A stretch of DNA of 64,000 nucleotides from Halobacteria archaeon HArc-gm2 (GTDB lineage: Archaea; Halobacteriota; Halobacteria; Halobacteriales; Haloarculaceae), in contig JAOPKE010000012.1 in the NCBI GenBank assembly GCA_025517465.1, positions 1 to 64,000 of the forward strand, given 5' to 3'. A model generated the notes under the pieces. That model ran no database searches and was not told the origin of the DNA. It saw only the letters and a list, made by a program, of their open reading frames with translations. Below, one piece after another: positions 2,022 to 24,311 of this stretch. A program made the position numbers and the translations under genes. How positions within the stretch are numbered: position 1 is the first letter of the stretch; the number at the start of each line of letters is the position of its first letter.

Positions 2022-4343
2022 ATGGAAGACGACGACAGGCGATCAGTGAGAGACGAATCGAACGGGAACGAAGACGAGCCACGGGACGTCGAGGTCGTAC
2101 CCGAAGACGAAACGAAACCCAGACGAAACGACTTCGCAGCGATGGACCGGCGCGACTACATGAAGGCGGTGGGCGCCGCCGCGGCCGCCACGGGACTGGG
2201 CGCCGCAGCGTCGTCCCCGGCGGCGGGCGCGACGGCGGACACGTCCAAGACGCCCGAGGAGCGCATCCAGGAGCATCGCACCGGCGACCTCGAAGTGGTC
2301 GTCGAGAATTCCGACGGGTCCACGGTCTCGGGGGCGGAAGTGAGCGTCACCCAGCAGTCCCACGACTTCCGGTGGGGAACGGCGGTCCACGCCGACACGC
2401 TGATCAACCAGAACAGCGCCGGCGACAACTACCGGGAGTACATCCCGGAGCTGTTCAACACGGCCGTGATGGAGAACCAGCACAAGTGGGCCCTCTGGGA
2501 GCAGAACACCCAGCTCGCCGACGACGCGACCAACTGGATCCTCGACCAGGGCATGGACATGCGCGGGCACGTCTGCGTCTACGGCGTCGACTACGCGGTT
2601 CCGAGCGACGTCCAGACCGCCATCGACAACGGCGACACGGAGACGGTCCGCGAACTGGCGATGCAACACATCGACGAGATCATGAACCACTATGGGAGCG
2701 ACATCCACGAGTGGGAGGTCCTCAACGAGGTCCAGCACTCGACGACGATCATCGACCCGTTCACGTCGAACCCCGAGACCGCGCAGATCGTCGCCGACTG
2801 GTACCAGCGGGCCGAGGAGGTCCGTCCCAGCGGCACGACGCTGGCGGTCAACGACTACAACGCCATCGCCGGCGACTACAGCAGCGACCAGCAGGGCTAC
2901 CAGACCCACATCCAGCACCTGCTCGACAACGGTATCGACCTGGAGACGACGGGGCTGCAGTGTCACTTCGCCCAGAACGAGACGCTGAGCGACAGCCAGA
3001 TCATCAGCATCCTCAACGAGTACGGGCAGCTCACGGACACCCTCAAGATCACCGAGTACGACCAGTCGGGCAGCAACTGGGACGAGTCGGCCAAGGCCGA
3101 CTGGTTCGAGCGCTTCCTCCGGCTGACGTTCAGTCATCCCGGCGTCGGGTCCTTCCTGGTGTGGGGCTTCTGGGACGGCCGCCACTGGGAGGACGACGCG
3201 CCGTTCTTCTACGAGGACTGGTCCGAAAAGCCAAGTCTCGACGTCTGGCGGAACCTCGTCTACGGCGAGTGGTGGAACGACGAGAGCGGCACCACCGATT
3301 CGAGCGGGACCTACTCGACGAACGCCTTCCTCGGCGAGCACGAGATCACCGTCTCGACGGACAGCGACTCGACGACGCAGACGGTCTCGGTCACCAGCAC
3401 CGGCGGGACGTCCGTCACCGTCACGGTCGACGGGAGCGGTACCGGCGACGGTGACGACGGTGACGACGGTGACGATGGCAGCGACGGTGACGACGGCAGC
3501 GGCGAGCAGCAGCCCTACAACGGCTCGCCCCACGCCGTTCCCGGCACCATCCAGGCCGAAGAGTACGACGAGGGTGGCTCGGGCGTGGCCTACAGCGACA
3601 ACACCACCGAGAACGAGGGCGGTGCGATGCGCACCGACGAGGCCGTCGACATCTCCTCGAACTCCGCCGGCTCTGGCTACTCCATCGGGTACATCGAGTC
3701 CGGCGAGTGGGTCGAGTACACCGTCGACGTCCAGCAATCCGGCGAGTACACCCTCGAAGCGCTCGTCGCCTCCGACTCCGGCGGCGGATCCTTCCACCTC
3801 GAAGTGAACGGCCAGGACGTCTCGGGCACCGTCAGCTTCGGCGCCACGGGCGGCTGGGACTCCTGGGAGACCGTCTCCACCGCCGGCGTCTCCCTCGACG
3901 CCGGCCAGCAGGTCGTCCGCGTCTCGATGGACGAGAGCTGGTGGGACCTCAACAACGTCTCCCTCTCCCTCGACGGCGCCAGTAGCGGCGGCAGCTCCGG
4001 CGGCGACGGCGATGGTTCGGGAGGCACCGGCGGCGACGGCGGGACCGGCGGTGACGGTGGAACTGGCGGCGACGGCGATACAGGTGGCGACCTGATCGCG
4101 GAGATCTCGCCCAGCACCACCGCCGCCAGCGTCGGCGACCTCGTCCAGTTCCACATCAACGACACGTCTGGGTCCGGAAACTGGATCACGTCCCTCGAAT
4201 GGGACCTGGGTAACGGCTCGACCGGCACCGGCTGGTACACCGACGAACGCTACCAGTCCGCCGGTAGCTACACCGTCACGCTCACCGTGACGGACAACGA
4301 GGGAACCTCGACCACCGACGAGGTGACTGTGACCATCTCCTGA
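2022..4343 (+). CDS. Secreted GH10 endo-1,4-beta-xylanase with CBM6 and PKD domain
   Basis: 773 aa. An acidic N-extension precedes the Tat motif RRDYMKA (Arg 43-44). A short beta-rich region (about 88-115) is followed by the GH10 barrel (about 115-415). The acid/base is E236 in EWEVLNE and the nucleophile E345 in LKITEYD; WGFWDGRHW is the usual substrate-site Trp motif. A small C-terminal beta region and an Asp/Gly linker follow. Then come a CBM6 (about 500-645, [13 protein letters not shown]), a Gly-Asp linker, and a PKD domain (about 690-773, LEWDLGNGS). The 3' CBM6 and PKD coding regions closely match those of the genes at 6087 and 4621. Family and catalytic residues are clear; xylan as substrate is inferred from family and context. 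Confidence 0.95.
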   Translation: MEDDDRRSVRDESNGNEDEPRDVEVVPEDETKPRRNDFAAMDRRDYMKAVGAAAAATGLGAAASSPAAGATADTSKTPEERIQEHRTGDLEVVVENSDGSTVSGAEVSVTQQSHDFRWGTAVHADTLINQNSAGDNYREYIPELFNTAVMENQHKWALWEQNTQLADDATNWILDQGMDMRGHVCVYGVDYAVPSDVQTAIDNGDTETVRELAMQHIDEIMNHYGSDIHEWEVLNEVQHSTTIIDPFTSNPETAQIVADWYQRAEEVRPSGTTLAVNDYNAIAGDYSSDQQGYQTHIQHLLDNGIDLETTGLQCHFAQNETLSDSQIISILNEYGQLTDTLKITEYDQSGSNWDESAKADWFERFLRLTFSHPGVGSFLVWGFWDGRHWEDDAPFFYEDWSEKPSLDVWRNLVYGEWWNDESGTTDSSGTYSTNAFLGEHEITVSTDSDSTTQTVSVTSTGGTSVTVTVDGSGTGDGDDGDDGDDGSDGDDGSGEQQPYNGSPHAVPGTIQAEEYDEGGSGVAYSDNTTENEGGAMRTDEAVDISSNSAGSGYSIGYIESGEWVEYTVDVQQSGEYTLEALVASDSGGGSFHLEVNGQDVSGTVSFGATGGWDSWETVSTAGVSLDAGQQVVRVSMDESWWDLNNVSLSLDGASSGGSSGGDGDGSGGTGGDGGTGGDGGTGGDGDTGGDLIAEISPSTTAASVGDLVQFHINDTSGSGNWITSLEWDLGNGSTGTGWYTDERYQSAGSYTVTLTVTDNEGTSTTDEVTVTIS

Positions 4344-8112: not shown

Positions 8113-11100
8113 TCAGGAGACGGTGATCTCCACTTCGTTCGTGGTCGAGTAGCCGAGGTTGTCGGTGGCCGTCAGGGTCACCGTGTAGGTGCCCGACGAC
8201 TCGTACTCGGTGGCGGCGAACCAGCCGGACTCGGTCGACCCGTCGCCCAGATCCCACTCCAGGGTGTCGATCCAGCGACCCTGGCCGGAGGTGTCCTCGA
8301 CGCGGAACTCGACGCGCTCGCCGACCGACGCCTCGGTGGTGCTCGGCCGGGCGACCGCCAGTTCGCTCTGGAGGTCAGCGATCCAGACGACGACCTGGTC
8401 GGTCGTGGTCGTGCCCTCGTTGTCGGTGACGTGCAGCGACACCGTGTAGGCGCCGGGCGAGTCGAAGCGATGTTCGTTCCACCAGCCGGAGGCCTCCGTC
8501 CCGTCGCCGAACTCCCACTCGATGGTGTCGATCCAGTGACCGCTGCCGGTCGTGTCCCGGACGTCGAAGGTGAACCGGTCGCCGACGACGCCCTCGGTCG
8601 CACTCGGCACGAGCCGGGCGTTCAGGTCGTCGTCCTCGCCGATCTCCTCGTCGACGACCTCGAAGTCGAGTTCGAGGTCGGTCGTGACGCCGCCCTCGCT
8701 GGTCGCGCTCGCCGAGAGCAGGTTCCGGCCGCGGGCGGTGAGCTGGCCGTCCGAGAACGCCTCGCCGTTGAGCGTGACCGTCTCGTCGGTCACGTCGCTG
8801 TCGTCGTCGGCGATGGCAACGCTGGCGGGGTGTGGCGCCTCGTAGGTGTCGCCGTCCTGGACGCCGTCGACCAGGACCGTCGGACCGGTCGCGTCCACGC
8901 CGTCGAGGTCGGCGGTGTCGCCCCAGATCTCGACGGAGCCGACGTTGACGGCCCAGTTGTTCTGCGACTCGGAGATCGTCACCCGGAGGTAGGTCGCGTC
9001 CCCGGGAAGCCCCGAGGTGACGAGGTAGCGCCGGTGGTCGAAGTAGTCGTTCGACTCGGCGGAAGCCTCCACCGTCGTCGGTTCGACGTCGACCGTCTCG
9101 AAGCTCTCGCCGTCGGCCGACACCTCGAACGTGAGGCCGTCGTAGACGTCGCCGTCGCCGTCGAACTCGCCGTAGTTCACGTAGACGTCGGTACGGAACG
9201 CGGAGAGGCCGTCCTCGACCGCGTAGGTGATCGACCCGCTCTGGGAGGGGTCGGCCAGCCGGAAGCGCGCGCCGTCGCCGTGGCGCTCCTGGTAGTTCGT
9301 CACCTCGACGCCGTCGGCCGAGGCGGTCTTCGAGAGGTCCGCCGCCTGGTCGTCGACCGTCGGCTCACCGTAGGCGGCAAAGCGCGCGCTCGCCGCGGCG
9401 GTGTCGCCGTAGGCCGAGACCGTCGCGGTCACCGTCGCGGCGCCGGTGCCGACGACGGAGACGGTGCCCGACTCGTCGACCATCACGGCGTCGGGGTTGT
9501 CTGTCTGGTAGGTGACGTTGTCGGCCGGCAGCGGAAGCTCCGCGCCGCCCTCGTTCCGCACGGTGACGTCGAGCGTGGCCGTCTCGTCGCCCCACAGCGT
9601 GTTGGCGTCGACCGCCAGGTCCACCTCGGCGATGGAAGCCGGCGTTATCTGGACGGTGACGGTACCGGTCTCGTCGACCGTGGCCGTCGTGCTCCCGGTC
9701 CGGGTCCCGTCGGAGGCGACGACCTCGTACTCGCCCTTGAATCCGCGCGTGGTGTAGACGCCGTCGTCGCCGGTCTCGCCGCGCTCCTCGGTCCACCACT
9801 CGTCGAAGACCAGGTCCATGAACTGCTGGCCGTGGGGCCGGATGGTCCAGTCGGAGTCGTAGTAGGCGCCGGTCGGTCGCCAGTGGTCCTCCGCCCAGAA
9901 GCCCCAGGACATGACGCCCTCGACGGCCTCGTGGCTGAAGGATGCGTACAGGAAGTCCCTGAGGAAGTCAGCCTGCCACGCGACCTGGTCCTCGTTGTCG
10001 CGGCTGGCGATCTGGATGTCGAACTCCGCGATGAGGATCGGGAGTCCGAGTTCGGCGAACTGGTCGTAGGTCTCGACCAGTTCCTTCGGCGGCGTCACGT
10101 TGCCGTTGGGGAACTGGACGTGGCCCATGAAGCCGACGCCGTCGACGGGCGCGCCGTCTTCCAGCAGGCGCTCGACGAGGTCGTAGTGCTGCTGTCGGAA
10201 GAAGTCGCCCGCGACGTTGCCCATCTCGTTGGTGTACAGTTCCGCGTCGGTGGCCTCGTTGCCAGCCTCCCACCACTCGAGAACCGCGTCCCAGCCCAGG
10301 CGGTCCCTGATGTTGGGCTGCCAGATGGGGTGGTTGTGCATGTCCCACTCGGTCACCTCGTCACCGATGTCGGTGGCGTGGTCCGTGATCCGGTCGAGCA
10401 TCTGCTGCTGGACTTCCGCGTCCGTGAGCGAGTCGGGGTCCTCGATCCCCATCCCACCGCCGCCCTCGGTGCTGTACTCCTCCCAGACGAGGTAGTGACC
10501 ACGCGTGGGGACGTTGCGCTGGTTGAGCCAGTCGAGGGCCTGCTTCGCGCCCTCCTTGCTGTCACCCCACTCGCCGAGGAACGCGGGGTACTTCAGGCCG
10601 TTCTCGATGACGGCCTTGTTGAAGTTCTCCAGGAACGTCTCCCGGTAGATCTCGTCGTCTTCGCTGTCGCCGTTGATGTGTTCCGCCGAGACGGCGCTCC
10701 CGAAGTCGAAGGCGTGTTCCTGCATCGCCAGGTCGACGGTCGCGCCGGGGACCGCGTTCCCGTCACCGTCGACGACTTCGACTTCCAGATCCGTCTTCCG
10801 GATCTCCTCGATGCGGTCCCGGGCGTCCTGGCGCCACTGGGCGCCCTCCTCCCGCCCCTCGTAGCTGAGCAGCGGGTTCGGTCCCCCGTCGCTCGCGCCC
10901 GAGGGCAGGTCGCCGACCGAGACGTCGGTCCCGCTGTAGTCGATCAGGGAGATACCGCCGAACTCGAGGCTCTGTTCCTGGAACCCCGCCCAGAACTCGA
11001 GGTACGGTTCGAACTCCGAGCCGTCGGGTTGCTCGCCGATTTCGACCGGGAAGTAGTACCGCGTCCACTCCCCGTCCGGCTGGATCGACGCGCCGTCCTG

Positions 11101-11610
11101 GACGAACGTACTGCTGTAGGACGTGCTTCCCTCGGAGTCCTGGTACCGATACTTGAAGCCCGCCTGGGTCTCGGCGCCGTCCGTGTCGCTCCGGACGTAC
11201 GCGACGCCCAGGAGAACGTCACCGGCGCTGAACGACCGGTCGGTGACGTATCCCTGGTAGGAGTAATCCCAGTTGTTGCTCGGTTCCTCGTTGACGTCGA
11301 CGCGGACGCCCTGCGTGATCGGAACGTCCGAATCGCTGACCTCAAACGTCGACGTCGACCCGCTCCCCGCGCCGGAGAACGAGAAGGCGTCGACGACGTC
11401 CTGCTCTGTCAGTCCGTAAACGAACTCCCCCTGCGGGAGTTCGTGGTTCTCTTGTAAATCGCCCAGGAGCGTGTTGTGGTATTCGTCCGCGCCCTCGACC
11501 TGTGCGACAGCGCTGCCCACCGTCCCGGTGCCGCCGAGTACGCCGAGCGCCGCGAGTGATTGCAAAAATGTCCGTCGATGACTTCCCACATCGTCAAATT
11601 CTCTTTCCAT
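8113..11610 (-). CDS. Large secreted GH10-family protein with N-terminal CBM-like, discoidin-like and two PKD domains; acid/base Glu position is His
   Basis: 1165 aa from the ATG at 11610 (a GTG lies 9 nt upstream). Tat motif RRTFLQS near residue 13, cleavage probably after AVAQ. Domains: beta-sandwich resembling CBM4/9/22 (about 60-230), GH10 (about 265-620), Ig-like beta regions, discoidin/CBM-like sandwich (about 735-880, WAVNVGSVEIW), Ig-like segment, and two PKD domains (about 990-1075 and 1082-1165). The nucleophile motif is intact (E529, LIAEFDIQ). At the acid/base position the motif reads WDMHNHP, so the usual Glu is His427 (codon 10330-10332). The protein may be a divergent GH10 with altered catalysis, or a binding protein. 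It stands alone, convergent to the xylanase tandem. Confidence 0.88.
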   Translation of the reverse strand: MEREFDDVGSHRRTFLQSLAALGVLGGTGTVGSAVAQVEGADEYHNTLLGDLQENHELPQGEFVYGLTEQDVVDAFSFSGAGSGSTSTFEVSDSDVPITQGVRVDVNEEPSNNWDYSYQGYVTDRSFSAGDVLLGVAYVRSDTDGAETQAGFKYRYQDSEGSTSYSSTFVQDGASIQPDGEWTRYYFPVEIGEQPDGSEFEPYLEFWAGFQEQSLEFGGISLIDYSGTDVSVGDLPSGASDGGPNPLLSYEGREEGAQWRQDARDRIEEIRKTDLEVEVVDGDGNAVPGATVDLAMQEHAFDFGSAVSAEHINGDSEDDEIYRETFLENFNKAVIENGLKYPAFLGEWGDSKEGAKQALDWLNQRNVPTRGHYLVWEEYSTEGGGGMGIEDPDSLTDAEVQQQMLDRITDHATDIGDEVTEWDMHNHPIWQPNIRDRLGWDAVLEWWEAGNEATDAELYTNEMGNVAGDFFRQQHYDLVERLLEDGAPVDGVGFMGHVQFPNGNVTPPKELVETYDQFAELGLPILIAEFDIQIASRDNEDQVAWQADFLRDFLYASFSHEAVEGVMSWGFWAEDHWRPTGAYYDSDWTIRPHGQQFMDLVFDEWWTEERGETGDDGVYTTRGFKGEYEVVASDGTRTGSTTATVDETGTVTVQITPASIAEVDLAVDANTLWGDETATLDVTVRNEGGAELPLPADNVTYQTDNPDAVMVDESGTVSVVGTGAATVTATVSAYGDTAAASARFAAYGEPTVDDQAADLSKTASADGVEVTNYQERHGDGARFRLADPSQSGSITYAVEDGLSAFRTDVYVNYGEFDGDGDVYDGLTFEVSADGESFETVDVEPTTVEASAESNDYFDHRRYLVTSGLPGDATYLRVTISESQNNWAVNVGSVEIWGDTADLDGVDATGPTVLVDGVQDGDTYEAPHPASVAIADDDSDVTDETVTLNGEAFSDGQLTARGRNLLSASATSEGGVTTDLELDFEVVDEEIGEDDDLNARLVPSATEGVVGDRFTFDVRDTTGSGHWIDTIEWEFGDGTEASGWWNEHRFDSPGAYTVSLHVTDNEGTTTTDQVVVWIADLQSELAVARPSTTEASVGERVEFRVEDTSGQGRWIDTLEWDLGDGSTESGWFAATEYESSGTYTVTLTATDNLGYSTTNEVEITVS

Positions 11611-11642
11611 CTTAAGCACCCGGTAAGATCGTTAATTGCGGA

Positions 11643-11804: not shown

Positions 11805-13886
11805 TCAGTTCACCAGCGGGACGCGGCCGCGTTCGTCCGCGACTCCCGAGTAGTCGTAGAAGTACTCGACGAGCGTGTCGCGCCAGCGCTCGGCCTGTAC
11901 CACCTGTTCGTCGAAGCGTTCGGCGACGTGTCGATAGCGCTGCTCGTCGATGCTCCCCTCCAGCGACCGCCACTGCTCGCGGAGTCGTTTTACCTCCTCG
12001 ACGCCGGCGAAGCAGTTGTCGTACAGCGTCTGGACGACCGTCCGCCCGTCGTCGAGTTCGTGGTCCCAGGGGAGGTGGTGGAAGAACAGCAAGAGTTCCC
12101 GCGGACAGGTCCCGGGGTCGTCGTACCGCTCGGCCACGGGGTCGGCGAACTGGTCGACGTAGTCACTGCCGCTGGAACTCCGGTCGTAGCCGATCCCCTC
12201 CTCCGTCGCGCCGGTGTATCCGGGCCACTCCGCCGGGGCCGGATCGTAGTGGTTCTCCAGGCGCGCCTCGCCGTTGTACATCATGTGGATGAGGCCGAGG
12301 CCGCCCGTCTCGTAATCGATGGTAGCCTCCCAGGAGTCCTGGAGGATCCCGACCACGGTCTCGACCACCTCGGGGTCGTCGCCGAACGTCAGCCGGACCC
12401 ACTTCTCGGTGACCGACTCGCCGTCGAGCGTGGGGTCCCAGGCCAGTCGCCCGAAGCCGTAGAGGTTGACCCCCGAGAGGTAGTTGCCGAACCAGTTGCC
12501 GTCCTCGCCGACGTTGCCGACGCCGGCGATGCCCTCGCCCTCGGTGCCGGCGAATGCCTCCGTGACTGGCGTTCCCTGGCCGTCTGCGTGGGTGTCGAAC
12601 GCGAAGAACTCCTCCCAGAGCGGGACGTGCGAGCAGACGTGGACACCCTGGCCGGTGTACTCCTGGGTGATCTGGAGTTCGCAGGCGAGGTGGGTCTCCG
12701 GCATGTCGCCGAACAGCGTCGAGACGGGCTCTCTGGGCTGGAAGTCGATGGGACCGTTCTTCACCTGGACAGTGACCTTCTCGTGGAAGTCGCCGTCCTG
12801 GGGTTCGAAGATGGCGTGGGCCTGGACCGCGCGGTCGTCGTGGTCCGAGTAGACGAACGCCCGCCAGAAGACGCGCCCGTCGTACGGTTCGAACGCCCGG
12901 CCGAGGACGTTGGCCCCCTCGGCGTGACTCCGGTCGTAGTCGTATGGGCCGGGCTGACCCTCGGAGTCGGCCTTGACGAGGAAGCCGCCGAAGTCGGGGA
13001 TCAGGTCGTACACTTCCGCGACCTTCTCGGCCCACCAGGCCTCGACCGCGTCGTCCAGCGGGTCGGCGGTGTCGAGGCCGCCCACGAACATCGGTGAGGC
13101 GTAGTTCACCGAGAGGTACGTCCGGATGCCGTACCGCCGGAACACCGCGGCCAGCGCCGCCACCTTCGGGAGGTGTTGCTCGTCGAGCAGGTCGACGCCC
13201 TCGAACTCGCCGGTGCCCGCCAGGTCCCCGGGCCGCTCGGGCCGCGTCGTGTTGACGTCGTTCAGGACGACGCCGTTGATACCGACCGAGGCGAGCAGGC
13301 GCGCGTAATCGAAGTAACGCTCGCGCAGGTCCGGCAGGTGTTCCCACTTGAAGATGGACTCGCCGCCGTAGCCCCGCTCGACCGTGCCGCGGAACGGTTC
13401 GTCCCACTGGTTGATCAGCCGCTCCGCGTTACGGGGCTCCTCGACGACGTCCAGGTCGTCGATGGGTTCGCCCGTCGCCATCAGGCGGAGGAGGTGGAAG
13501 GTCCCGTAGACGAGCCCCCGGTCGGTCGGCGCCGTGACCACCGTGACCTCGGCGCCCTCCCACGTCGTCGAGCGGAGGTGGTAGCCGTCGTCGTCGAGCG
13601 AGCGGACCATGCCCGCGTCGACGGAGTCGGCGACGACCTCCATCAGGTCGGGCTGACCGACGACGAGGAAGCCGTCGGCCGACCGCGGCGGGTGCTGCCA
13701 GAGGTGGGGCTCGCTGCCGAGCATCCCCTCGATACCCTCGCGCAGTTCGTCGCGGATCGCCCCGTGCTGGGGGGAGGTCTCCCCGGCGTAGACGTGCAGA
13801 CATCGTCTGGCGTAGGACTCGCGGCGGTCGGCGTCGTCGACCCGCGGATACCGGAGCCAGCACTCGTCGTAATCAGCGTCGAGCAT
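11805..13886 (-). CDS. aguA: GH67 alpha-glucuronidase
   Basis: 693 aa, full length for GH67. It removes 4-O-methyl-glucuronic acid from the non-reducing end of short glucuronoxylo-oligosaccharides. All three expected carboxylates are visible: E309 in KADSEGQPGP, D381 in GPIDFQP and E409 in LQITQEY. The C-terminal helical region (MMYNGEARLENH, LLLFFHHLPW) is typical. There is no signal peptide, so it acts inside on imported oligosaccharides. Its product fits the glucuronate isomerase and mannonate dehydratase genes further right. Divergent from the HEAT-repeat gene. The symbol is by family analogy. Confidence 0.95.
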   Translation of the reverse strand: MLDADYDECWLRYPRVDDADRRESYARRCLHVYAGETSPQHGAIRDELREGIEGMLGSEPHLWQHPPRSADGFLVVGQPDLMEVVADSVDAGMVRSLDDDGYHLRSTTWEGAEVTVVTAPTDRGLVYGTFHLLRLMATGEPIDDLDVVEEPRNAERLINQWDEPFRGTVERGYGGESIFKWEHLPDLRERYFDYARLLASVGINGVVLNDVNTTRPERPGDLAGTGEFEGVDLLDEQHLPKVAALAAVFRRYGIRTYLSVNYASPMFVGGLDTADPLDDAVEAWWAEKVAEVYDLIPDFGGFLVKADSEGQPGPYDYDRSHAEGANVLGRAFEPYDGRVFWRAFVYSDHDDRAVQAHAIFEPQDGDFHEKVTVQVKNGPIDFQPREPVSTLFGDMPETHLACELQITQEYTGQGVHVCSHVPLWEEFFAFDTHADGQGTPVTEAFAGTEGEGIAGVGNVGEDGNWFGNYLSGVNLYGFGRLAWDPTLDGESVTEKWVRLTFGDDPEVVETVVGILQDSWEATIDYETGGLGLIHMMYNGEARLENHYDPAPAEWPGYTGATEEGIGYDRSSSGSDYVDQFADPVAERYDDPGTCPRELLLFFHHLPWDHELDDGRTVVQTLYDNCFAGVEEVKRLREQWRSLEGSIDEQRYRHVAERFDEQVVQAERWRDTLVEYFYDYSGVADERGRVPLVN

Positions 13887-15359: not shown

Positions 15360-16391
15360 TTAGAGCGTGCCGCCGGTGATCGAGTCGTCTTCGCCCTCCT
15401 CGGTCGTCTCGGACTCGCCGGCGAGGCGGGTCCGGACGCGGGGGTTGAACACCTTGTCCATCCCCTGCCCGAGCAGGATGAGACCCAGTGCGAGGCCGAC
15501 GATGGCGATCATCGGTGCGATGAGCCAGTGGGCCGCGTCGGGAACGAACAGCGCGCCGTTGGCCTGCGCTCGTGCGAGCGTGACACCCCACGTCTGCGTC
15601 GAGTAGGGCAACACGCCGAGGAAGTACAGCCCGACCGAAGCGAAGATGGTGTACCGGGCCGCGAACACGAAGTTCACGGTCACGTACGGCATCAGGTTCG
15701 GGATGATGTCCTTCACCATGATCTGCCAGGTGCTGACGCCCATCGTCCGGGAGGCCTCGACGTAGCTGTCCTCGCGGATCGTCAGGACCTGCGAGCGAAG
15801 CGAACGGCCGAGTCCGGCCCAGTAGTTGATCGTCAGGATAACCCCGACGAAGATGGGGTTCTCCGGGCTGAACGTGATCGCGAGGATGATCACGAGCGGG
15901 AGGCCGGGGATGGCCATGAAGAAGTCGGAGACCGACATCAGGATGTTGTCGATCATGCCGCCCTTGTAGCCCGCGAACACCCCGACCAGGAGCGCGACGC
16001 CGGTCGCCCAGACGCCGCCCGCCAGGACCATCAGCAGGATGTCCGACGTCGAGTGGATGATGGCCGCGGTCAGGTCGACGCCCGCGGAGGTCGTTCCCAG
16101 CGGGTACGCCATGTTCTCGAACATACCGAGCAGACGCGGCGCCTGGCTCGTCGACGGTGCCCGCCAGAGCCCGAGTTCGCCGATCAGCGCGAGCAGCAAG
16201 TAGAACGCGATGACCACCAGCCCGATGCGCGTCCGGAGGTCGGACCACGCGATGAGCATGGGCTGGTAGACCCGGTGCTCGTAGAACTCCCAGAACCGCT
16301 CGCCGCGAGTCAGTTCGACGTCGGAGCTCTCTGCGTGCCAGTCGAATCCGTCCGCCGGTGCGTCTGTTTCAGTATGCTTCACGGGAATCAC
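15360..16391 (-). CDS. ABC transporter permease, DppC/OppC family
   Basis: 343 aa. It is a membrane subunit of an oligopeptide/oligosaccharide-type importer. The N-terminal hydrophilic region is followed by about six transmembrane segments. The cytoplasmic coupling loop is EASRTMGVSTWQIMVKDIIP, the EAA-like motif that docks the ATPase. It overlaps the upstream permease gene by 23 bp, so translation is probably coupled. In this locus the system more likely carries xylo-oligosaccharides than peptides; archaeal Opp/Dpp-type importers often carry sugars, but that is inference. No partner ATPase genes follow. Confidence 0.92.
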   Translation of the reverse strand: MIPVKHTETDAPADGFDWHAESSDVELTRGERFWEFYEHRVYQPMLIAWSDLRTRIGLVVIAFYLLLALIGELGLWRAPSTSQAPRLLGMFENMAYPLGTTSAGVDLTAAIIHSTSDILLMVLAGGVWATGVALLVGVFAGYKGGMIDNILMSVSDFFMAIPGLPLVIILAITFSPENPIFVGVILTINYWAGLGRSLRSQVLTIREDSYVEASRTMGVSTWQIMVKDIIPNLMPYVTVNFVFAARYTIFASVGLYFLGVLPYSTQTWGVTLARAQANGALFVPDAAHWLIAPMIAIVGLALGLILLGQGMDKVFNPRVRTRLAGESETTEEGEDDSITGGTL

Positions 16392-17373
16392 CTGCGCTGA
16401 TACGTGGGTCGATTTTGCTGTAGGTCAGGTCTGCGATGTAGACGCCGACGACGAGTGCGACGGTGATGACCAGGAACGTGCCCATCATCAGCGGGTAGTC
16501 GTTGCCGTTGAGACCCTCGAGCATGTAGTAGCCGAGCCCGGGGTAGTTGAAGATGTACTCCAGGATGATGGTCCCGCCCAGCCGGAAGCCGAGCAGGAGC
16601 AGGAAGCCGGTGTACATCGGCAGGATGGCGTTCCGGGCGACGTAGCGAGTCGAGATGCGGGTGTCGGAGAGGCCGCGGAGTCGCGCCACCTCGACGAAGT
16701 CCTGCCCGAGCACCTGGATGCTGTTCCCGCGCATCGCCAGCGCCTGGGAACCGATCCCGGTAATCGTGTACGCGAAGACCGGTAACGCGGCGTGTTTGAG
16801 GACGCTCACGAAGAACGCCAGGCTCCAGTAGTTGTCGATGCTCGAATCGGCGGTCCCCGACGGCGGGAACCAGCCGAGCCGGTAGGAGAAGACCAGCAGA
16901 GCCAGGATCGCGATGACGTAGAACGGGATAGACATCCCCGCCATAGAGAACGTCGAGACGATCCCGTCGAACTTCGAGCCCTCCTTGTACGCCTGGAGCG
17001 CCCCGAGAACGATCCCGAAGGCGAACATCAGGACGGTGGAGACGACCACGATGAAGATCGTCCAGGGCGCGGCCTGGGCGAGGATCTCGACGACCGGATC
17101 CCCCTTGCTGATGGACTGACCGAGGTTCAGCTGGAGGACCGAGACCATATAGTTGATGTACTGTTCCCACAGCGGTGCGTCAGGGCGGATGTTCTGCAGG
17201 TTCTCGATCTGCTGGTTGACCTGCTCCGCAGGGACCCCTGATCGGAGCAACTGCGCGCGCAGCTGCGAGTACGGGCCTCCCGGCAGGAGACGGATCAACC
17301 CGAACGTCACCGACATCACGGCGAAGACGGTGGCGAACACCCGGGCAGTTCGTCGGACGTAGTAGTTGACCAT
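16369..17373 (-). CDS. ABC transporter permease, DppB/OppB family
   Basis: 334 aa. An N-terminal transmembrane helix (FATVFAVMSVTFGLIRLLPG) opens the protein, with the usual DppB-type extracytoplasmic stretch and five more helices. The coupling loop reads EVARLRGLSDTRISTRYVAR. It is the middle gene of a three-gene operon: binding protein (17468-19267), this permease, then the DppC-type permease. The 94-bp gap before it may hold only a ribosome-binding site. Forms the heterodimeric channel with the next gene. Confidence 0.92.
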   Translation of the reverse strand: MVNYYVRRTARVFATVFAVMSVTFGLIRLLPGGPYSQLRAQLLRSGVPAEQVNQQIENLQNIRPDAPLWEQYINYMVSVLQLNLGQSISKGDPVVEILAQAAPWTIFIVVVSTVLMFAFGIVLGALQAYKEGSKFDGIVSTFSMAGMSIPFYVIAILALLVFSYRLGWFPPSGTADSSIDNYWSLAFFVSVLKHAALPVFAYTITGIGSQALAMRGNSIQVLGQDFVEVARLRGLSDTRISTRYVARNAILPMYTGFLLLLGFRLGGTIILEYIFNYPGLGYYMLEGLNGNDYPLMMGTFLVITVALVVGVYIADLTYSKIDPRISAGDSREAY

Positions 17374-17467
17374 GCGTCTGGTATTGATTTTTAACGTGCT
17401 CTCTCTAAGGTGTGACGGATTGTATCGAAAGATGTGGAGCGATTCGAATACGGGTCCGGTTACCCGA

Positions 17468-19267
17468 TTACTCCTGGGCCGTCAGCTTGCCCTTCCGGGG
17501 CAGCCAGAACGGCGGCCACTTGACGGCACGGTCCGGGTCGCCTTCCTCGACGATGTCCCACTCGTCGTTGGTCAGCCAGGACTGCTCGAACTTGGAGACC
17601 AGCGAGAGGAACGGCAGGTCGACGTTGTTGTGCCAGGCCGCTTCCTGGACGATCGGCATCGCCTCCTCGTTGGTCGGGACCGTCGCGATCTCCTCGACCT
17701 TCTGGAGGGGATTGATCGTCGTCTCGCCGTCGCCGCTCATCGAGGGGATGGTCTGCTCTTCCTCGGCCGGGTAGTTGTGCCCGCCGTCCATCGCGTCGAA
17801 CGCCAGCTGGTGGCGCAGCGGGAAGTAGGGGAACGTCGAACGCGCCTGGCCCGGCAGCCAGTAGAACGCGGCGATGTCGAAGTTGGAGTCGATGATCCGA
17901 CCCTGCCAGTCGCTCGTCGGTGCAGTCGCGACCGTCAGGTCGATACCGAAGTCGCTGAGCCGGTCGACGATGGTGTTGGTCATCGTCGTGAAGTCGGACC
18001 AGCCCGCCGGCGTGAGGTACTCGGCGCTGAGGGCCTCGCCGTCGGGGGTCTGCCAGGTGCCGCCGGACTTCGAGTAGCCCGCGTCCTCGAGAACCTGCGT
18101 CGCCGACTCGGTGTCGCTCTCGCCGACGCCGTAGTCGTTGAAGTTGCTCTTCTGGTCACCGAGCCACTGGTCGATGTTCTTCGGCGCGATCCCACAGGGG
18201 ACGCTCGCCGGGAACTTCGTTCGCGGGCCCGCGTTCTCGACGAGCTCCTCGCGGTTGATGACGTAGGCGATTGCCTGTCGGACCGCGCGGTCGCCGAAGA
18301 TATCGCTGTCGTGGTTGAAGACCGTCCCGTAGCCCCACTTGGCCAGGATGGACCGGATCTCGACGACGTGGTCCTGATACCCTTCGACCGTCTCCGGCGG
18401 CGCGAACGCGCTCCAGGAACTGTCGAAGCGGCCGCCGCCCGCAGTGAAGTCCTGCTGGGGGACGCTCGCTTCCTGGTAGGCGTCGAACTGCCAGTCGCTG
18501 AAGTTGATGTTGTCCGCGTCGCGGAACTCGGGGTTGCGCTCGAAGTTCCACTCCTGCTGGCTCCGGTCGACGTACTTGAACGGACCGCTCACGAGGACGT
18601 CCTCGTCGCTGTCCTCCCACACCCAGGTCTGGACTTCGGAGGCGTCCTGGTCGAGGAACTGCTCGAACACGGAGGCCGGCGTGGAGACCCACATGTTCGA
18701 CAGCTGGAACTTGACCATCTGCGGGTTCGTCTCGCCCGAGAGGTTCAGCTGGTAGGTCAGGTCGTCGACGACCTCGGTGCTCTCGACGTAGCCCCAGATG
18801 GCGCTCCCGGTCTTCTTCTGAAGCTGGAACTGGGTGTCGATGTCCTCGGTGGTGACCTGGCTCCCGTCGGACCAGGTGAGGTCGTCGCGGAACGTCAGCG
18901 TGACCGTCTTCCCGTCGAACTCCCAGTCGTCGAGCGCCTCGAGCTGGAACTCGCCGCTTTCGAAAGAGTACGCTGCGTATCGGTCGAACGCCAGTCGCGA
19001 GGCAGGCTCGGAGGCGTTCTGCGTGTGGTGTCGGTTGATCGTGTCTTCGGTGGGGTTCGTCTGCAGTGCGCTGACGTGGGTCTTGTCGATGACGCCACTC
19101 GCACCGCCGTCCTCGCCGTCGCCGCTCGACTCGTTGCCGTCCTCACCGTCGCCACCGTCGCCACCACTGTCACAGCCCGCGAGGGCCGCGGCGCCTGAAA
19201 CGCCAACTAGCTCCACAAACCGTCTGCGGTCTACTAAGGAACGATATTTTGTGTTATCAGCTGCCAT
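17468..19267 (-). CDS. ABC transporter substrate-binding lipoprotein, SBP_bac_5 (Dpp/Opp/oligosaccharide) family
   Basis: 599 aa. The N-terminal Tat-lipoprotein signal has DRRRFVELVG and the lipobox LAGC near residue 34, followed by a Gly/Asp/Ser linker. The bulk is a family 5 solute-binding fold (AFDRYAAYSFESG, LTFRDDLTWSDGSQVT, EYTLTPAGW-type segments). It is the first gene of the importer operon, under a TATA box at 19295-19303. Family 5 binding proteins take peptides or oligosaccharides. Placement between GH67 and the xylonate and glucuronate genes suggests (glucurono)xylo-oligosaccharides. Confidence 0.92.
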   Translation of the reverse strand: MAADNTKYRSLVDRRRFVELVGVSGAAALAGCDSGGDGGDGEDGNESSGDGEDGGASGVIDKTHVSALQTNPTEDTINRHHTQNASEPASRLAFDRYAAYSFESGEFQLEALDDWEFDGKTVTLTFRDDLTWSDGSQVTTEDIDTQFQLQKKTGSAIWGYVESTEVVDDLTYQLNLSGETNPQMVKFQLSNMWVSTPASVFEQFLDQDASEVQTWVWEDSDEDVLVSGPFKYVDRSQQEWNFERNPEFRDADNINFSDWQFDAYQEASVPQQDFTAGGGRFDSSWSAFAPPETVEGYQDHVVEIRSILAKWGYGTVFNHDSDIFGDRAVRQAIAYVINREELVENAGPRTKFPASVPCGIAPKNIDQWLGDQKSNFNDYGVGESDTESATQVLEDAGYSKSGGTWQTPDGEALSAEYLTPAGWSDFTTMTNTIVDRLSDFGIDLTVATAPTSDWQGRIIDSNFDIAAFYWLPGQARSTFPYFPLRHQLAFDAMDGGHNYPAEEEQTIPSMSGDGETTINPLQKVEEIATVPTNEEAMPIVQEAAWHNNVDLPFLSLVSKFEQSWLTNDEWDIVEEGDPDRAVKWPPFWLPRKGKLTAQE

Positions 19268-19891: not shown

Positions 19892-19961
19892 CTACGCCTC
19901 GTCGAACGCCTGAAATCGAAAAGATTCTGGCTCGAAGAAGCTCCGCTACGCCTCGTCGAAC
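19892..19961. repeat. Duplicated 3' end of the xacD-like gene
   Basis: CTACGCCTCGTCGAAC occurs at 19946-19961, where it encodes the last residues and stop of the dehydratase, and again at 19892-19907, just downstream of the gene. The copies are 54 bp apart. Confidence 0.6.
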
Positions 19962-21184
19962 AGCGTCTCGCCCTCGACCATGTGCTCCTCGACGGCGTCG
20001 AGATTGAGCGTCAGGCCGAGACCGGGCTCTTCGGGGATCTCCATGCGACCGTTCTCGATGAGGTTGTCCTCCTCGACCAGGTCCTCCCACCAGCCGAGCT
20101 GGTAAGAGTGGTACTCGAGCGCGAGCGAGTTCGGGATGGCCGTGGCGACCTGCGCCGAGGCCATCGTCCCGATGGGGGAAGAGACGTTGTGCATGGCGAC
20201 GGGGATGTAGTACATCTCCGCGAGGTCGGCGATCTTTCGGGTCTCGCGCATGCCACCGACGCGGGGCAGGTCGGGCGCGATGATGTCGACGGCCTGGGGC
20301 TCCAGCAGGGTGCGCTGGCCGTACTTGCGGTAGACGTTCTCCCCGACGGCGATGGGCGTCGTCGTGGACTTCGTGACGTTCTCCTGAACCTCGTGGTTCT
20401 CCGGCGGGACGGGGTCCTCGAGCCACCAGACGTCGTACGGTTCGAGGGCCTCGGCGAGTCGCTTGGCCGAGCCGCCGGTGAACGACCAGTGGCAGTCGAA
20501 GGCGACGTCGGCACGGTCGCCGACGCGCTCCGTGACCTCCTTCACGATCTCGACCTTGTGGTCGATCTCGGGGTTGCGGAGGTGGCGGTTGGCCCGGTCC
20601 TTCTCGTGACCGGAGGGAACGTCGAGGTCGAACTTGATGGCGTCGTAGCCCAGGTCCTCGACGACGCGCTCACCTTCGTCGGCACAGGCCACCGGGTTGG
20701 CCTCGTCTTCGGTGTGGAGGTCACAGTAGACGCGGACCTCGTCGCGGTACTTGCCGCCGACGAGCTGGTAGGCCGGCACGTCGAGGAGTTTGCCAGCGAC
20801 GTCGTGGAGTGCGATCTCGATGCCGGAGATGGCGGAGATCGTCTTGCCGGAGATGGAGCCCTCACCGGACATCTTCTGAATGAGGTGCTCGTAGAGCCGG
20901 TCGATGTCCAGCGGGTTCTCGCCGACGACGAAGGGCTTCATCCGCTCGATGATAGCCGTGTCACCGCCGCCCCAGTAGGACTCACCGGTGCCCACGACGC
21001 CGGCGTCGGTGTAGACGCGGACGAGAATCCACGGGTAGTTTCCGTCGACCATCGTCGTCTGGACGTCGGTGATCTCGACGTCACGCGCGTCGCCGCGGCT
21101 GTTCGTGAGTCCCATCGTCTCCGAGGAGAGGTCGCGCATCGTGTACTCCGCGTTCGGATCACGGAGCTTGGCGTGGTCTACCAT
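19946..21184 (-). CDS. xacD: D-xylonate dehydratase, enolase superfamily (XacD-like)
   Basis: 412 aa. It dehydrates xylonate (and probably arabinonate) to 2-keto-3-deoxypentonate in the oxidative pentose pathway. The N-terminal capping domain (about 35-150) is followed by an enolase-type barrel. Metal ligands are D230 (FDCHW), E256 (WLEDP) and E282 (VGENVY); H332 (AMHNVSSP) is the likely base. The opening residues (MVDHAKLRDPNAEYTMRDL) match my memory of the Haloferax volcanii XacD start, which also fixes the ATG at 21184. The next gene upstream on the same strand is the XacA-like xylose dehydrogenase. Confidence 0.9.
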   Translation of the reverse strand: MVDHAKLRDPNAEYTMRDLSSETMGLTNSRGDARDVEITDVQTTMVDGNYPWILVRVYTDAGVVGTGESYWGGGDTAIIERMKPFVVGENPLDIDRLYEHLIQKMSGEGSISGKTISAISGIEIALHDVAGKLLDVPAYQLVGGKYRDEVRVYCDLHTEDEANPVACADEGERVVEDLGYDAIKFDLDVPSGHEKDRANRHLRNPEIDHKVEIVKEVTERVGDRADVAFDCHWSFTGGSAKRLAEALEPYDVWWLEDPVPPENHEVQENVTKSTTTPIAVGENVYRKYGQRTLLEPQAVDIIAPDLPRVGGMRETRKIADLAEMYYIPVAMHNVSSPIGTMASAQVATAIPNSLALEYHSYQLGWWEDLVEEDNLIENGRMEIPEEPGLGLTLNLDAVEEHMVEGETLFDEA

Positions 21185-21322
21185 CCTACTCCGACGATGC
21201 CGAGCGAGTATAGTAAAGGTTCTGAAGTAGCGGCCGGATTCCGCGTCTCCGGCGATGGTTACGCCACCTGAACGGCGGTACGACGCGGAGCGCGAACGGG
21301 GAGATTCGGGGTCGGGCGGTCG

Positions 21323-22411
21323 CTACTCGACCGTCACGCGTTCGCCGGTCTCTGCAGCGTCGTAAATCGCCTTCAGCGCGTACATATCGTCCAGTCCGTG
21401 CTCGCCGTCGGGGCCGATGGGTTCCTCGCGGAGGACGCGGTCGGCGAAGTAGTCGAACTCCTCGGTCATCTCGCTGCCCATCATGTCGCGACGACCGGAG
21501 TCGATCTCCACCGTTCGGTCACCGCGCCGGAGCGTCAGCGTCTGGGGCGTCTGGCCGAGGAAGATGGGCTCGATGGTCAGTTCGCCCTCGGTGCCGATGA
21601 CGCTGAAGCGGCCCGAGAGCTGTGCGTTCTGACTCGCGGTGTACGCCGCAGTCGTCCCGTCGGCGTACTCGACGGTGAAGCTGGCGTGCTCGTCCGGAAC
21701 CTTCGAGAACGCCTGGTGCTCGCTGCGCATCATCGCCGTGGCCGCGACGGGTTCGGCGTCGAGGACGAACCGCGCGGTGTTGAGCGGGTAGATTCCCAGG
21801 TCCATGACCGTCGCGCCGTAGCCCGCCTTGTCGGGGTTCACGCGCCACTGGTCCACGTCGTCCGAGACGACGTCCAGCATCGTCTGGGTCATGTGCCCCT
21901 CGACGGCGACAGGCTCGCCGATGGCCCCCTCGCGGATCAGTTCGCGCATCCGCCGGACGTCGGGGTCGGTCTGCATCCGGTAGGCGGTCATCAGCGGGAT
22001 GTCCTCGGCGGCGGCGACGAGCTCCTCGGCGCGCTCGACGGTCGCCTCCAGGGGCTTCTCGCAGAGGACGGCCTTGTCGTGTTCGGCGGCGGCCTCGACG
22101 TACTCCTTGTGGTAGGCGTTGGGCGTGCAGACGTAGAGGGCGTCGTAGGCGTCGACGGCCTCGCCGTCGATCAGCTCGTCGTAGGTCAGCGCGACCTCCA
22201 CCGTCTCGTTCTCGTCGCGCACGCGAGCGGCCTTGTCCTCGCTCCCGCTGACGACGGCCGTCGTCTCGCAGAACTCGGAGTCTTCCACCGCCGGCATCGC
22301 CTCCTCCATCGTCCACCAGCCCAGTCCGACCATTGCGACGCGGAGCGTCCCCGAGTCCAGTTCCTGCCAGTCCCGTTCGGTGAACGCCGCGAGGTAGTCC
22401 TCGATTGCCAT
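21323..22411 (-). CDS. xacA: D-xylose 1-dehydrogenase, Gfo/Idh/MocA family (XacA-like)
   Basis: 362 aa from the ATG at 22411; the frame stays open upstream to 22537 but that part looks like non-coding translation. The Rossmann motif is VGLGWWT near residue 20 and the catalytic Lys lies in CEKPLEAT near residue 100. The C-terminal alpha/beta domain includes DLGIYPLNTARF. By homology to haloarchaeal xylose dehydrogenase it oxidises xylose to xylonolactone with NADP+. It stands 138 bp upstream of the xacD-like gene on the same strand. A paralogue at 59027-60097 shares the WW motif and overall layout, so the substrate split between them is open. Confidence 0.85.
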   Translation of the reverse strand: MAIEDYLAAFTERDWQELDSGTLRVAMVGLGWWTMEEAMPAVEDSEFCETTAVVSGSEDKAARVRDENETVEVALTYDELIDGEAVDAYDALYVCTPNAYHKEYVEAAAEHDKAVLCEKPLEATVERAEELVAAAEDIPLMTAYRMQTDPDVRRMRELIREGAIGEPVAVEGHMTQTMLDVVSDDVDQWRVNPDKAGYGATVMDLGIYPLNTARFVLDAEPVAATAMMRSEHQAFSKVPDEHASFTVEYADGTTAAYTASQNAQLSGRFSVIGTEGELTIEPIFLGQTPQTLTLRRGDRTVEIDSGRRDMMGSEMTEEFDYFADRVLREEPIGPDGEHGLDDMYALKAIYDAAETGERVTVE

Positions 22412-22515
22412 ATTCTGGAGTTCCTGTGGACCGCAAAAAGTGTAGCCATCTGCCCGCGACGGGCGGTGGAGAGCGCCAGCGCCCGGGCGAGTGAATCGGC
22501 CGCTGGCCGGCTCAT

Positions 22516-22593
22516 ACTGGTGGTTGTAACTTTGCACCGGCGTTCGACGTGGCCGGTGCCGTCGAACGCCGATACGGGCTTACAACCACCAGT
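22516..22593. repeat. Nested palindromic element, copy 1
   Basis: Outer arms are ACTGGTGGTTGTAA (22516-22529) and its reverse complement (22580-22593). Inner arms are GGCGTTCGAC (22539-22548) and GTCGAACGCC (22561-22570). The element ends 1 bp before the uxaC stop codon. A second copy with the same design is at 26314-26394. Without a transposase it resembles a MITE or a mobile hairpin; it may also serve as terminator. Confidence 0.75.
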
Positions 22594-22594
22594 G

Positions 22595-23962
22595 TCAGAA
22601 CCCGTACAGCTCCCGGGGTCGGTCGTAGGCGACGTGCCTGACCAGTCGCTCGGCGTTACCCTCCGGAATCTGGCCGCGCTCGACCATCCGGCCGACGACG
22701 TTGGCGAGCGTCCGCCGGAACATCTCGAAGCGCGAGCCGTAGGAGACCAGCTTCCGCGAGTCGCTCACCATCCCGGCGTGGTTGGCCAGCAGGTCGACGG
22801 AGGCGGCGTACTCCAGCTGGTCCTCCATCCCGTAGGGGCTGTCGTTGAACCACCAGGCCGGACCGATGCTCACGTTCGGGTACGCGCGGGCGACTGTGCC
22901 GACGCCGTAGTAGTGACTCGGGTCGAGCACGTAGAGGACCACCTCGAACTCGCCGTCGAAGCGGTCGAGGAAGTAGTCCAGTCCTTCGACGACGTCGACG
23001 TCCTGCGTCGAGACGTCGCCGCCGGCGTTCGGCCCGAGTTCGTCGTACAGCGACTGGCGATAGCTCCGCACGGCGCCGACGTGGAGCTGGGTGACCCACT
23101 CCCGCTCGGCGTTCAGTTCGCCGACGAACTCCAGGACGTAGGCCTTCCAGTCCTCGACGTCGCGCTCTGAAATGTTCTCCCCGCGGCGCGCACGTTCGTA
23201 GATGCCAGCCGCCCGGTCGTCACTGACGGGCCGCGAGATGGGGTCCGTCCCGGTGCCGACGTCGCAGGCGACGCAGCCGTGGTCGGCGAAGTACTGGTGG
23301 GTCTCCCGGAGCGCGGCGCGGAAGCCGACCAGGTCGGAGACGTCGGGCTCGGTCGCGTCGTCGAGTTCGGCGACGAAGGCGTCCCACGCGTCGGTCTCGA
23401 TCTTCAGCGCCCGGTCCGGCCGCCAGGTCGGACGGACGTCCACGCCGTCGACCTCGTCCTCGGCCCGTTCGTGGTACTCCAGCCGGTCGGTCGGGTCGTC
23501 GCTGCTGCACAGCACCTCCACGTCCATGTCACGGAGGACCTGCTGGGGCCGCATCGCGTCGGACTGGAGCTGTTCCTTCGTCTCCTCCCAGATCTCGTCC
23601 GCGGTGTCGCTGTTGATCGGCTCGTGGATGTCGAAGCGGCGCTTCAGGTCGAGGTGGACCCACTCGTAGGTCGGGTTGCCCGCCAGGTCGGGAAAGACCT
23701 CGGCGAGGGCGTGCCACTTCTCCCGGTTGCTCGCGTCGCCAGTGATTTTCTCCTCGGGTACGCCGCGCTTGCGCATCAGCTGCCAGACGTAGTGGTCGGT
23801 CGCGCCCTCGACCTCCCAGACGTCGCTCCAGTGCTCGTTCTCGACGACTTCCGCCAGGTCGATGTGGTTGTGCGGGTCGACCACGGGGAGGTCGGCGATG
23901 GACTGGTAGAGGTCCCGTGCTGCGCCGGATTCGAGGAGATAGTCGTCGTCAAGGAAGCTCAT
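22595..23962 (-). CDS. uxaC: Glucuronate (uronate) isomerase
   Basis: 455 aa from the ATG at 23962 (MSFLDDDYLLESG). The frame runs 50 codons further upstream, but that sequence lies in the foldback element and looks non-coding. It isomerises D-glucuronate to D-fructuronate. The metal motif PHNHIDL near residue 30 and segments such as SDPTDRLEYH-type and FNDSPYGMEDQL are typical of the UxaC amidohydrolase fold. Its substrate is supplied by the GH67 enzyme at 11805-13886; the next pathway enzyme but one, UxuA, lies divergently at 24400. Confidence 0.93.
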   Translation of the reverse strand: MSFLDDDYLLESGAARDLYQSIADLPVVDPHNHIDLAEVVENEHWSDVWEVEGATDHYVWQLMRKRGVPEEKITGDASNREKWHALAEVFPDLAGNPTYEWVHLDLKRRFDIHEPINSDTADEIWEETKEQLQSDAMRPQQVLRDMDVEVLCSSDDPTDRLEYHERAEDEVDGVDVRPTWRPDRALKIETDAWDAFVAELDDATEPDVSDLVGFRAALRETHQYFADHGCVACDVGTGTDPISRPVSDDRAAGIYERARRGENISERDVEDWKAYVLEFVGELNAEREWVTQLHVGAVRSYRQSLYDELGPNAGGDVSTQDVDVVEGLDYFLDRFDGEFEVVLYVLDPSHYYGVGTVARAYPNVSIGPAWWFNDSPYGMEDQLEYAASVDLLANHAGMVSDSRKLVSYGSRFEMFRRTLANVVGRMVERGQIPEGNAERLVRHVAYDRPRELYGF

Positions 23963-24048
23963 ATCAGTGGAATTGGCTGATCTGGGCATCAAAGTTTCCC
24001 TAGGCATCGTTCGATGATGTTCCGGGAGAACAGCGAACGGAACAGGGC

Positions 24049-24311
24049 CCAACAACAGCCCGAAAGCCCCCGGGTGCTGGACCGGCCGGGACTCGCTGCG
24101 CTCCTCGCTCACTCCGTTCGCTCCGGTGCTTGCGTCGTCCGGGCCGGATCCAGCACCCGGCCCCTTTCAGTCCCGCCCGGTCGGCTGATCCACGGGGCGG
24201 GACTGAAAGGGGCCGAGCGGTCGTCGAGCGAGAACCTGCAAGCACGGCCGAAGGCCGCGCGCAGCGGGTTCGTAGCCGACGAGCGCGAGGGGGCTTTCGG
24301 GCTGTTGTTGG
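24049..24311. mobile_element. 263-bp foldback element with perfect 23-bp inverted ends (MITE-like)
   Basis: The terminal arms 24049-24071 and 24289-24311 are perfect reverse complements (left arm starts CCAACAACAGCCCGAAAG). Inside, CGGGTGCTGG (24071-24080) pairs with 24150-24159. A 21-bp arm at 24158-24178 (core CCCCTTTCAGTCCCGCCC) pairs perfectly with 24195-24215. No transposase frame or clear target duplication is visible. It fills most of the gap between uxaC and uxuA and separates their divergent promoters. The rest of the gap (23963-24048, 24312-24399) shows nothing else. Confidence 0.7.

Follow-up and report, generated by a model that had tools for sequence, protein, structure and literature searches.

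The stretch of DNA analysed here (the window, 64,000 nucleotides of a haloarchaeal contig) codes for a GH10 protein with a histidine in place of the catalytic acid/base glutamate, and on sequence criteria the proteins sharing this NHP motif (in place of NEP) are confirmed as a conserved natural GH10 subfamily found in both archaea and bacteria. GH10 is a textbook family of retaining glycosidases, and its members are generally regarded as unable to do without the acid/base Glu. The NHP group provides a ready-made natural experiment on whether, and by what route, a glycosidase can rebuild its acid/base. Our best reading, to which we give a probability just under one half (about 0.48), is that these are still-active retaining members of the family that would use a His427-Glu462 acid/base on decorated, often glucuronic-acid-bearing xylan. 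It is supported by retention of the nucleophile and glycone-site residues, the accompanying changes at E462 and M495, the low dN/dS of the GH10 domain and the glucuronoxylan-related neighbors; the contact between H427 and E462, the activity of the protein and its substrate are the parts that we infer.

Domain architecture and catalytic site

The gene lies on the reverse strand of the window and has the following features:

8113..11610 (-): whole gene, 1165 aa from the ATG at 11610; a GTG start at 11619 is also possible (ORF 8113-11619)
11506..11610 (-): twin-arginine (Tat) signal region, RRTFLQSLAALGVLGG, read from sequence
10906..11490 (-): N-terminal beta-rich module, CBM-like by position (AF2, pLDDT mostly 82-95)
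9691..10848 (-): GH10 (beta/alpha)8 domain with a C-terminal beta extension (PF00331, 1.5e-28; AF2, pLDDT 92)
10330..10332 (-): His427 at the acid/base position, NHP for NEP (H in 39/39 NHP rows, E in 66/66 others)
10225..10227 (-): Glu462, NE for ND (E in 39/39 NHP rows against 11/66 canonical rows)
10126..10128 (-): Met495, replacing the Gln of QSH/QGH (M in 31/39 NHP rows, Q in 66/66 others)
10024..10026 (-): Glu529, the nucleophile (E in all 105 rows)
9400..9597 (-): Big_2 Ig-like domain (PF02368, 2.2e-05)
8917..9366 (-): beta-rich module of unconfirmed identity, called discoidin-like in the earlier note (low-confidence model)
8389..8589 (-): PKD domain 1 (PF18911)
8140..8331 (-): PKD domain 2 (PF00801; structural match to the PKD domain of collagenase G, Z 14.3)

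Membership of the GH10 family is clear from the profile match to PF00331 (100.4 bits, with a cut-off of 22.1 bits) and from the AF2 model, a (beta/alpha)8 barrel of the GH10 type whose closest structure is 7d88 (Z 43.3, rmsd 2.0, 356 aligned residues). The barrel retains the nucleophile Glu on strand 7 (E529) and the complete set of glycone-site residues (E336, N337, K340, H372, W376, W569 and W577); the Glu expected on strand 4 as the acid/base is replaced by H427 here and in every other NHP protein. The earlier note, made from the letters alone, had read this His as part of a WDMHNHP motif and described Glu529 and the surrounding fold as conserved; both statements hold, the first at the codon 10332-10330 and the second in 105/105 aligned rows and in the structural match to 7d88.

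Its description of the remaining architecture fared unevenly. Both PKD domains were recovered by Pfam, together with a Big_2 domain, and these are the only C-terminal domains identified. The proposed N-terminal CBM corresponds to a confidently modeled module made up for the most part of beta strands, but a Pfam search with it returned no match. The discoidin-like assignment of the module at 8917..9366 stays an unconfirmed candidate, with a low-confidence model and no Pfam match; discoidin is absent among the structural matches listed for the C-terminal domains. Nor does a length of 1165 aa justify calling the protein giant. The Tat motif is shared with the N termini of most of its haloarchaeal relatives.

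Spread and phylogeny of the NHP proteins

Seven GH10 genes are present in the source genome, three with NHP and four with the normal NE. NHP also occurs in an orthologue from a second genome of this genus, whose GH10 region is 98% identical. Because two paralogues in the same genome, this orthologue and a total of 39 aligned domains share the motif, it cannot be attributed to chance or error, and the sequencing error at 10330-10332 that the earlier note named as a possible refutation is rejected. One NHP GH10 copy (G004:C1:2554966-2556204) is interrupted by an in-frame TGA stop and represents either a pseudogene or a sequence error.

A DNA pattern for WDM[HQ]NHP, run against a sample of 391 haloarchaeal genomes, matched 16 of them, distributed over 10 of 86 genera. 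A scan of GTDB representatives recovered the motif in many haloarchaea and on one Lentisphaeria MAG contig, where the ORF begins with a bacterial-looking signal sequence on only 3.1 kb of DNA. A looser pattern matched 11 of 388 genomes from the phylum of this MAG, and ten of the matches are GH10 genes, namely, the one on the Lentisphaeria contig and nine with WDV[ILV]NHP. These bacterial genes dispose of the idea that NHP is a feature of haloarchaea only. Among 246 sampled Planctomycetota genomes there was no GH10 protein with the motif, three pattern matches having been dropped because none gave a GH10 match, and no NHP GH10 protein was found in viruses. Most members carry Tat or Sec signals. 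A WDVINHP copy is also encoded on the Halocatena marina plasmid NZ_CP109982.1, where it adjoins sulfatases, a GH78 gene and an L-rhamnose mutarotase; a signal peptide is not evident at its annotated start. The layout of this locus, in a haloarchaeon from the intertidal zone, is suggestive of the use of sulfated rhamnan or ulvan.

With 65 rows in the tree, all NHP proteins then in the set form a single clade (support 100/99), which answers in the affirmative the earlier note's question of whether they would do so. An 88-row tree has three NHP groups, one uniting the haloarchaeal proteins with that from Lentisphaeria and two bacterial, on a poorly resolved backbone; constraining this wider set to a single origin lowers the log-likelihood by 0.56 units, and the constrained tree is not rejected (p-AU 0.49), so that the data are compatible with one origin of the NHP proteins. 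The H. marina protein groups with the haloarchaeal set. Within the haloarchaeal NHP clade, the deepest branch is that of the protein from the 3.1-kb Lentisphaeria contig, which comes from soda lake sediment, and this placement hints at transfer between bacteria and haloarchaea.

Active-site changes, gene neighborhoods and possible activity

The final alignment comprises 39 NHP and 66 canonical domains. H427 occurs in 39/39 of the former and 0/66 of the latter, and the following P428 in 39/39 and 28/66, respectively. Position 462 is Glu in 39/39 NHP domains, spanning all three subclades, and among canonical domains is Asp in 55 and Glu in 11/66; position 495 is Met in 31/39 NHP domains and in 0/66 canonical domains, all of which have Gln. 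These counts do not represent independent events, as the tree contains too few origins for a covariation test, and Fisher values computed from them are hence not evidence of independent H427-E462 events. Neither set shows any variation at H372, N426, N461, H497 or E529, and E336, N337, K340, W569 and W577 are nearly invariant across the 39 NHP domains. In a structural account of one canonical GH10 enzyme, Gln237 holds the acid/base Glu and Asp204 of the NDYN motif supports it, both being adjacent to it (PMC10992782). It follows from alignment of the motifs that M495 and E462 would occupy these Gln and Asp positions, and such concerted changes close to the acid/base give the site the appearance of one rebuilt around the new His rather than lost. 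As E462 also accompanies a normal acid/base Glu in the above-noted 11 canonical domains, it may be a preadaptation or unrelated.

A comparison of the full gene with that of its 98%-identical orthologue yields a dN/dS of 0.147, which breaks down into 0.035 for the GH10 domain, 0.167 for the N-terminal module and 0.195 for the C-terminal part, making the His-bearing domain the most constrained part of the protein. Two further variations occur within the NHP set. One bacterial group (L141-L147) has Gln instead of the glycone-side W376 and may therefore have a different -1/-2 site. A small haloarchaeal group (L019, L029 and L020) has SEFH or SELH after the nucleophile, with D531 changed to His, and one genome has two tandem copies.

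The gene is flanked in the window by the following:

2022..4343 (+): canonical GH10 paralogue with NEV at the acid/base, CBM6 and PKD
11805..13886 (-): GH67 alpha-glucuronidase (PF07488, 8.6e-127)
15360..19267 (-): two ABC permeases and a family-5 solute-binding protein
19946..24112 (-): MR/MLE-family dehydratase, xylose 1-dehydrogenase Gfo6 and glucuronate isomerase UxaC

With the three GH11 genes and the GH43 that it also includes, this is a glucuronoxylan locus. The other end of this sugar-use region (41792-44506, reverse strand) has a gene for a GH2 protein, whose best match is to a beta-glucuronidase at a score below the cut-off. Among the haloarchaeal NHP loci, GH67 is encoded within about 10 kb at 12/27 and either GH67 or UxaC at 15/27; the latter frequency does not differ significantly from the 4/14 of canonical haloarchaeal GH10 loci (p 0.19), and a specific link of NHP to GH67 is thus suggestive only. 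The other NHP loci adjoin GH127, GH78, GH30 or GH106 genes or housekeeping genes. Such varied neighborhoods, together with the nonsignificant association, make the NHP substrate a guess; residue conservation would point, as a guess likewise, to a xylan-type glycone.

On the preferred reading, the window protein would be a Tat-exported retaining glycoside hydrolase or transglycosidase. Glu529 would attack a xylosyl unit, bound in the conserved -2/-1 glycone site, at its anomeric carbon, His427 would give a proton to the leaving group and afterwards activate the acceptor, and Glu462, on the adjacent barrel strand, would position and tune His427. Its job would then probably be the extracellular trimming of decorated xylan fragments beside the GH67, GH11 and canonical GH10 enzymes. 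Dyads of this general kind, with His and Asp as the acid, have been proposed or computed in GH117, GH3 NagZ and GH156 (PMC11574756). A tentative and rather doubtful extension is that the subfamily exchanged Glu for a His-Glu dyad, moved between bacteria and haloarchaea and acquired an altered chemistry, be it action on a special aglycone (uronic-acid-bearing or otherwise), transglycosylation or phosphorolysis.

The main rival is that the NHP proteins are noncatalytic xylan-binding pseudoenzymes, in which the His would let the protein bind its substrate tightly but not turn it over, while the CBM-like and PKD modules would anchor the protein on that substrate or the cell surface. It owes this position to the engineered Streptomyces E128H series. 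Crystals of Streptomyces olivaceoviridis SoXyn10A N127S/E128H captured Michaelis complexes with intact xylopentaose as well as a trapped xylobiosyl intermediate (PMC5811086), the intact ligand indicating that His appears to be a poor acid/base in a canonical background, and the E128H enzyme binds pNP-xylobioside much better, according to the title of Kuno 1999. The abundance of accessory domains in the window protein and the precedent of BACOVA_03431, a natural inactive GH10 protein that serves as a surface xylan binder (PMC4491172), are consistent with such a role. However, BACOVA_03431 is devoid of the nucleophile and the -2 subsite, both of which NHP proteins retain; the nucleophile is kept in 39/39 of them, and no part of the protein is under stronger purifying selection than the GH10 domain. 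A role in binding alone might, however, produce the same pattern. The earlier note had leaned toward an inactive protein of adhesion or sensing; in light of the low dN/dS of the GH10 domain, the retained glycone-side residues and the concerted E462/M495 changes, we do not take this as the best reading, and we regard the pseudoenzyme alternative as unlikely while still according it some weight.

A different carboxylate might instead serve as the acid/base, either Glu462 itself or Glu377 of the VWE motif, leaving His427 as a spectator or charge tuner. The invariance of E462 in the NHP rows would fit this, as would the presence of E377 in 22/39 of them, including the window protein, against 0/66 canonical rows. 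However, Ser, Ala, Val or Gly takes the place of E377 in many NHP proteins, E462 occurs alongside a normal acid/base too, and H427 never varies, for which a spectator would have no need; we consider the proposal improbable. XynA 7d88, which has both an acid/base Glu and the Glu of an FWE motif, bears on it favorably, and the same structure led us to reject a simple Glu/His charge swap, in which the canonical His after VW would have become Glu, since there that Glu coexists with a normal acid/base; variation of the Glu after W within the NHP group further opposes such a swap. Finally, His might suit an unusual partner, such as an anionic acceptor (phosphate, as in a phosphorylase) or an anionic aglycone (glucuronic-acid-bearing xylose). 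GH3 N-acetylglucosaminidases are phosphorylases, which explains their His acid/base, according to a title cited in PMC11574756, and uronate catabolism genes adjoin many NHP loci. Yet, most members have Tat or Sec signals, and phosphorolysis outside the cell would forfeit its energetic benefit, while the uronate association is statistically not distinct, leading us to view this option as very improbable.

Comparison with known systems

In the open-access literature, we found neither a paper describing natural NHP GH10 proteins nor a laboratory assay of any of them, and the literature searched held no case of an NHP clade shown to consist of ordinary xylanases, which the earlier note had named as a finding that would count against it; a solved structure of a natural NHP protein was likewise looked for and not found. 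Two members are listed in RefSeq as endo-1,4-beta-xylanase (EC 3.2.1.8), a label that is unproven for NHP proteins; many genes carry it, and it needs an assay before being taken at face value.

The canonical enzymes XynA (7d88) and Cex (2exo) resemble the NHP proteins in fold, nucleophile and glycone residues, and 7d88 also in the C-terminal beta extension; they differ in having a Glu acid/base, NDY and Q-x-H, the corresponding features of the NHP group being His, NE and, in most members, M-x-H. The engineered S. olivaceoviridis Xyn10A variants E128H and N127S/E128H (2d20, 2d22, 2d24 and 5gqd) bear the same change at the same position. However, they are man-made variants of a canonical enzyme that lacks the Asp-to-Glu and Gln-to-Met changes, and in the crystals Asn127 is mutated as well. 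BACOVA_03431, in 2015 the only natural inactive GH10 protein known to its authors, is, like the NHP proteins, a natural homologue minus a catalytic residue (PMC4491172). What it has lost are the nucleophile and the -2 subsite, whereas the NHP proteins have dispensed with the acid/base Glu and do not show the losses typical of BACOVA_03431. A parallel to the proposed dyad is the carboxylate-assisted His general acid of GH117, GH3 NagZ and GH156, although these belong to other families that are not homologous to GH10, GH156 being inverting and the group as a whole exo-acting (PMC11574756).
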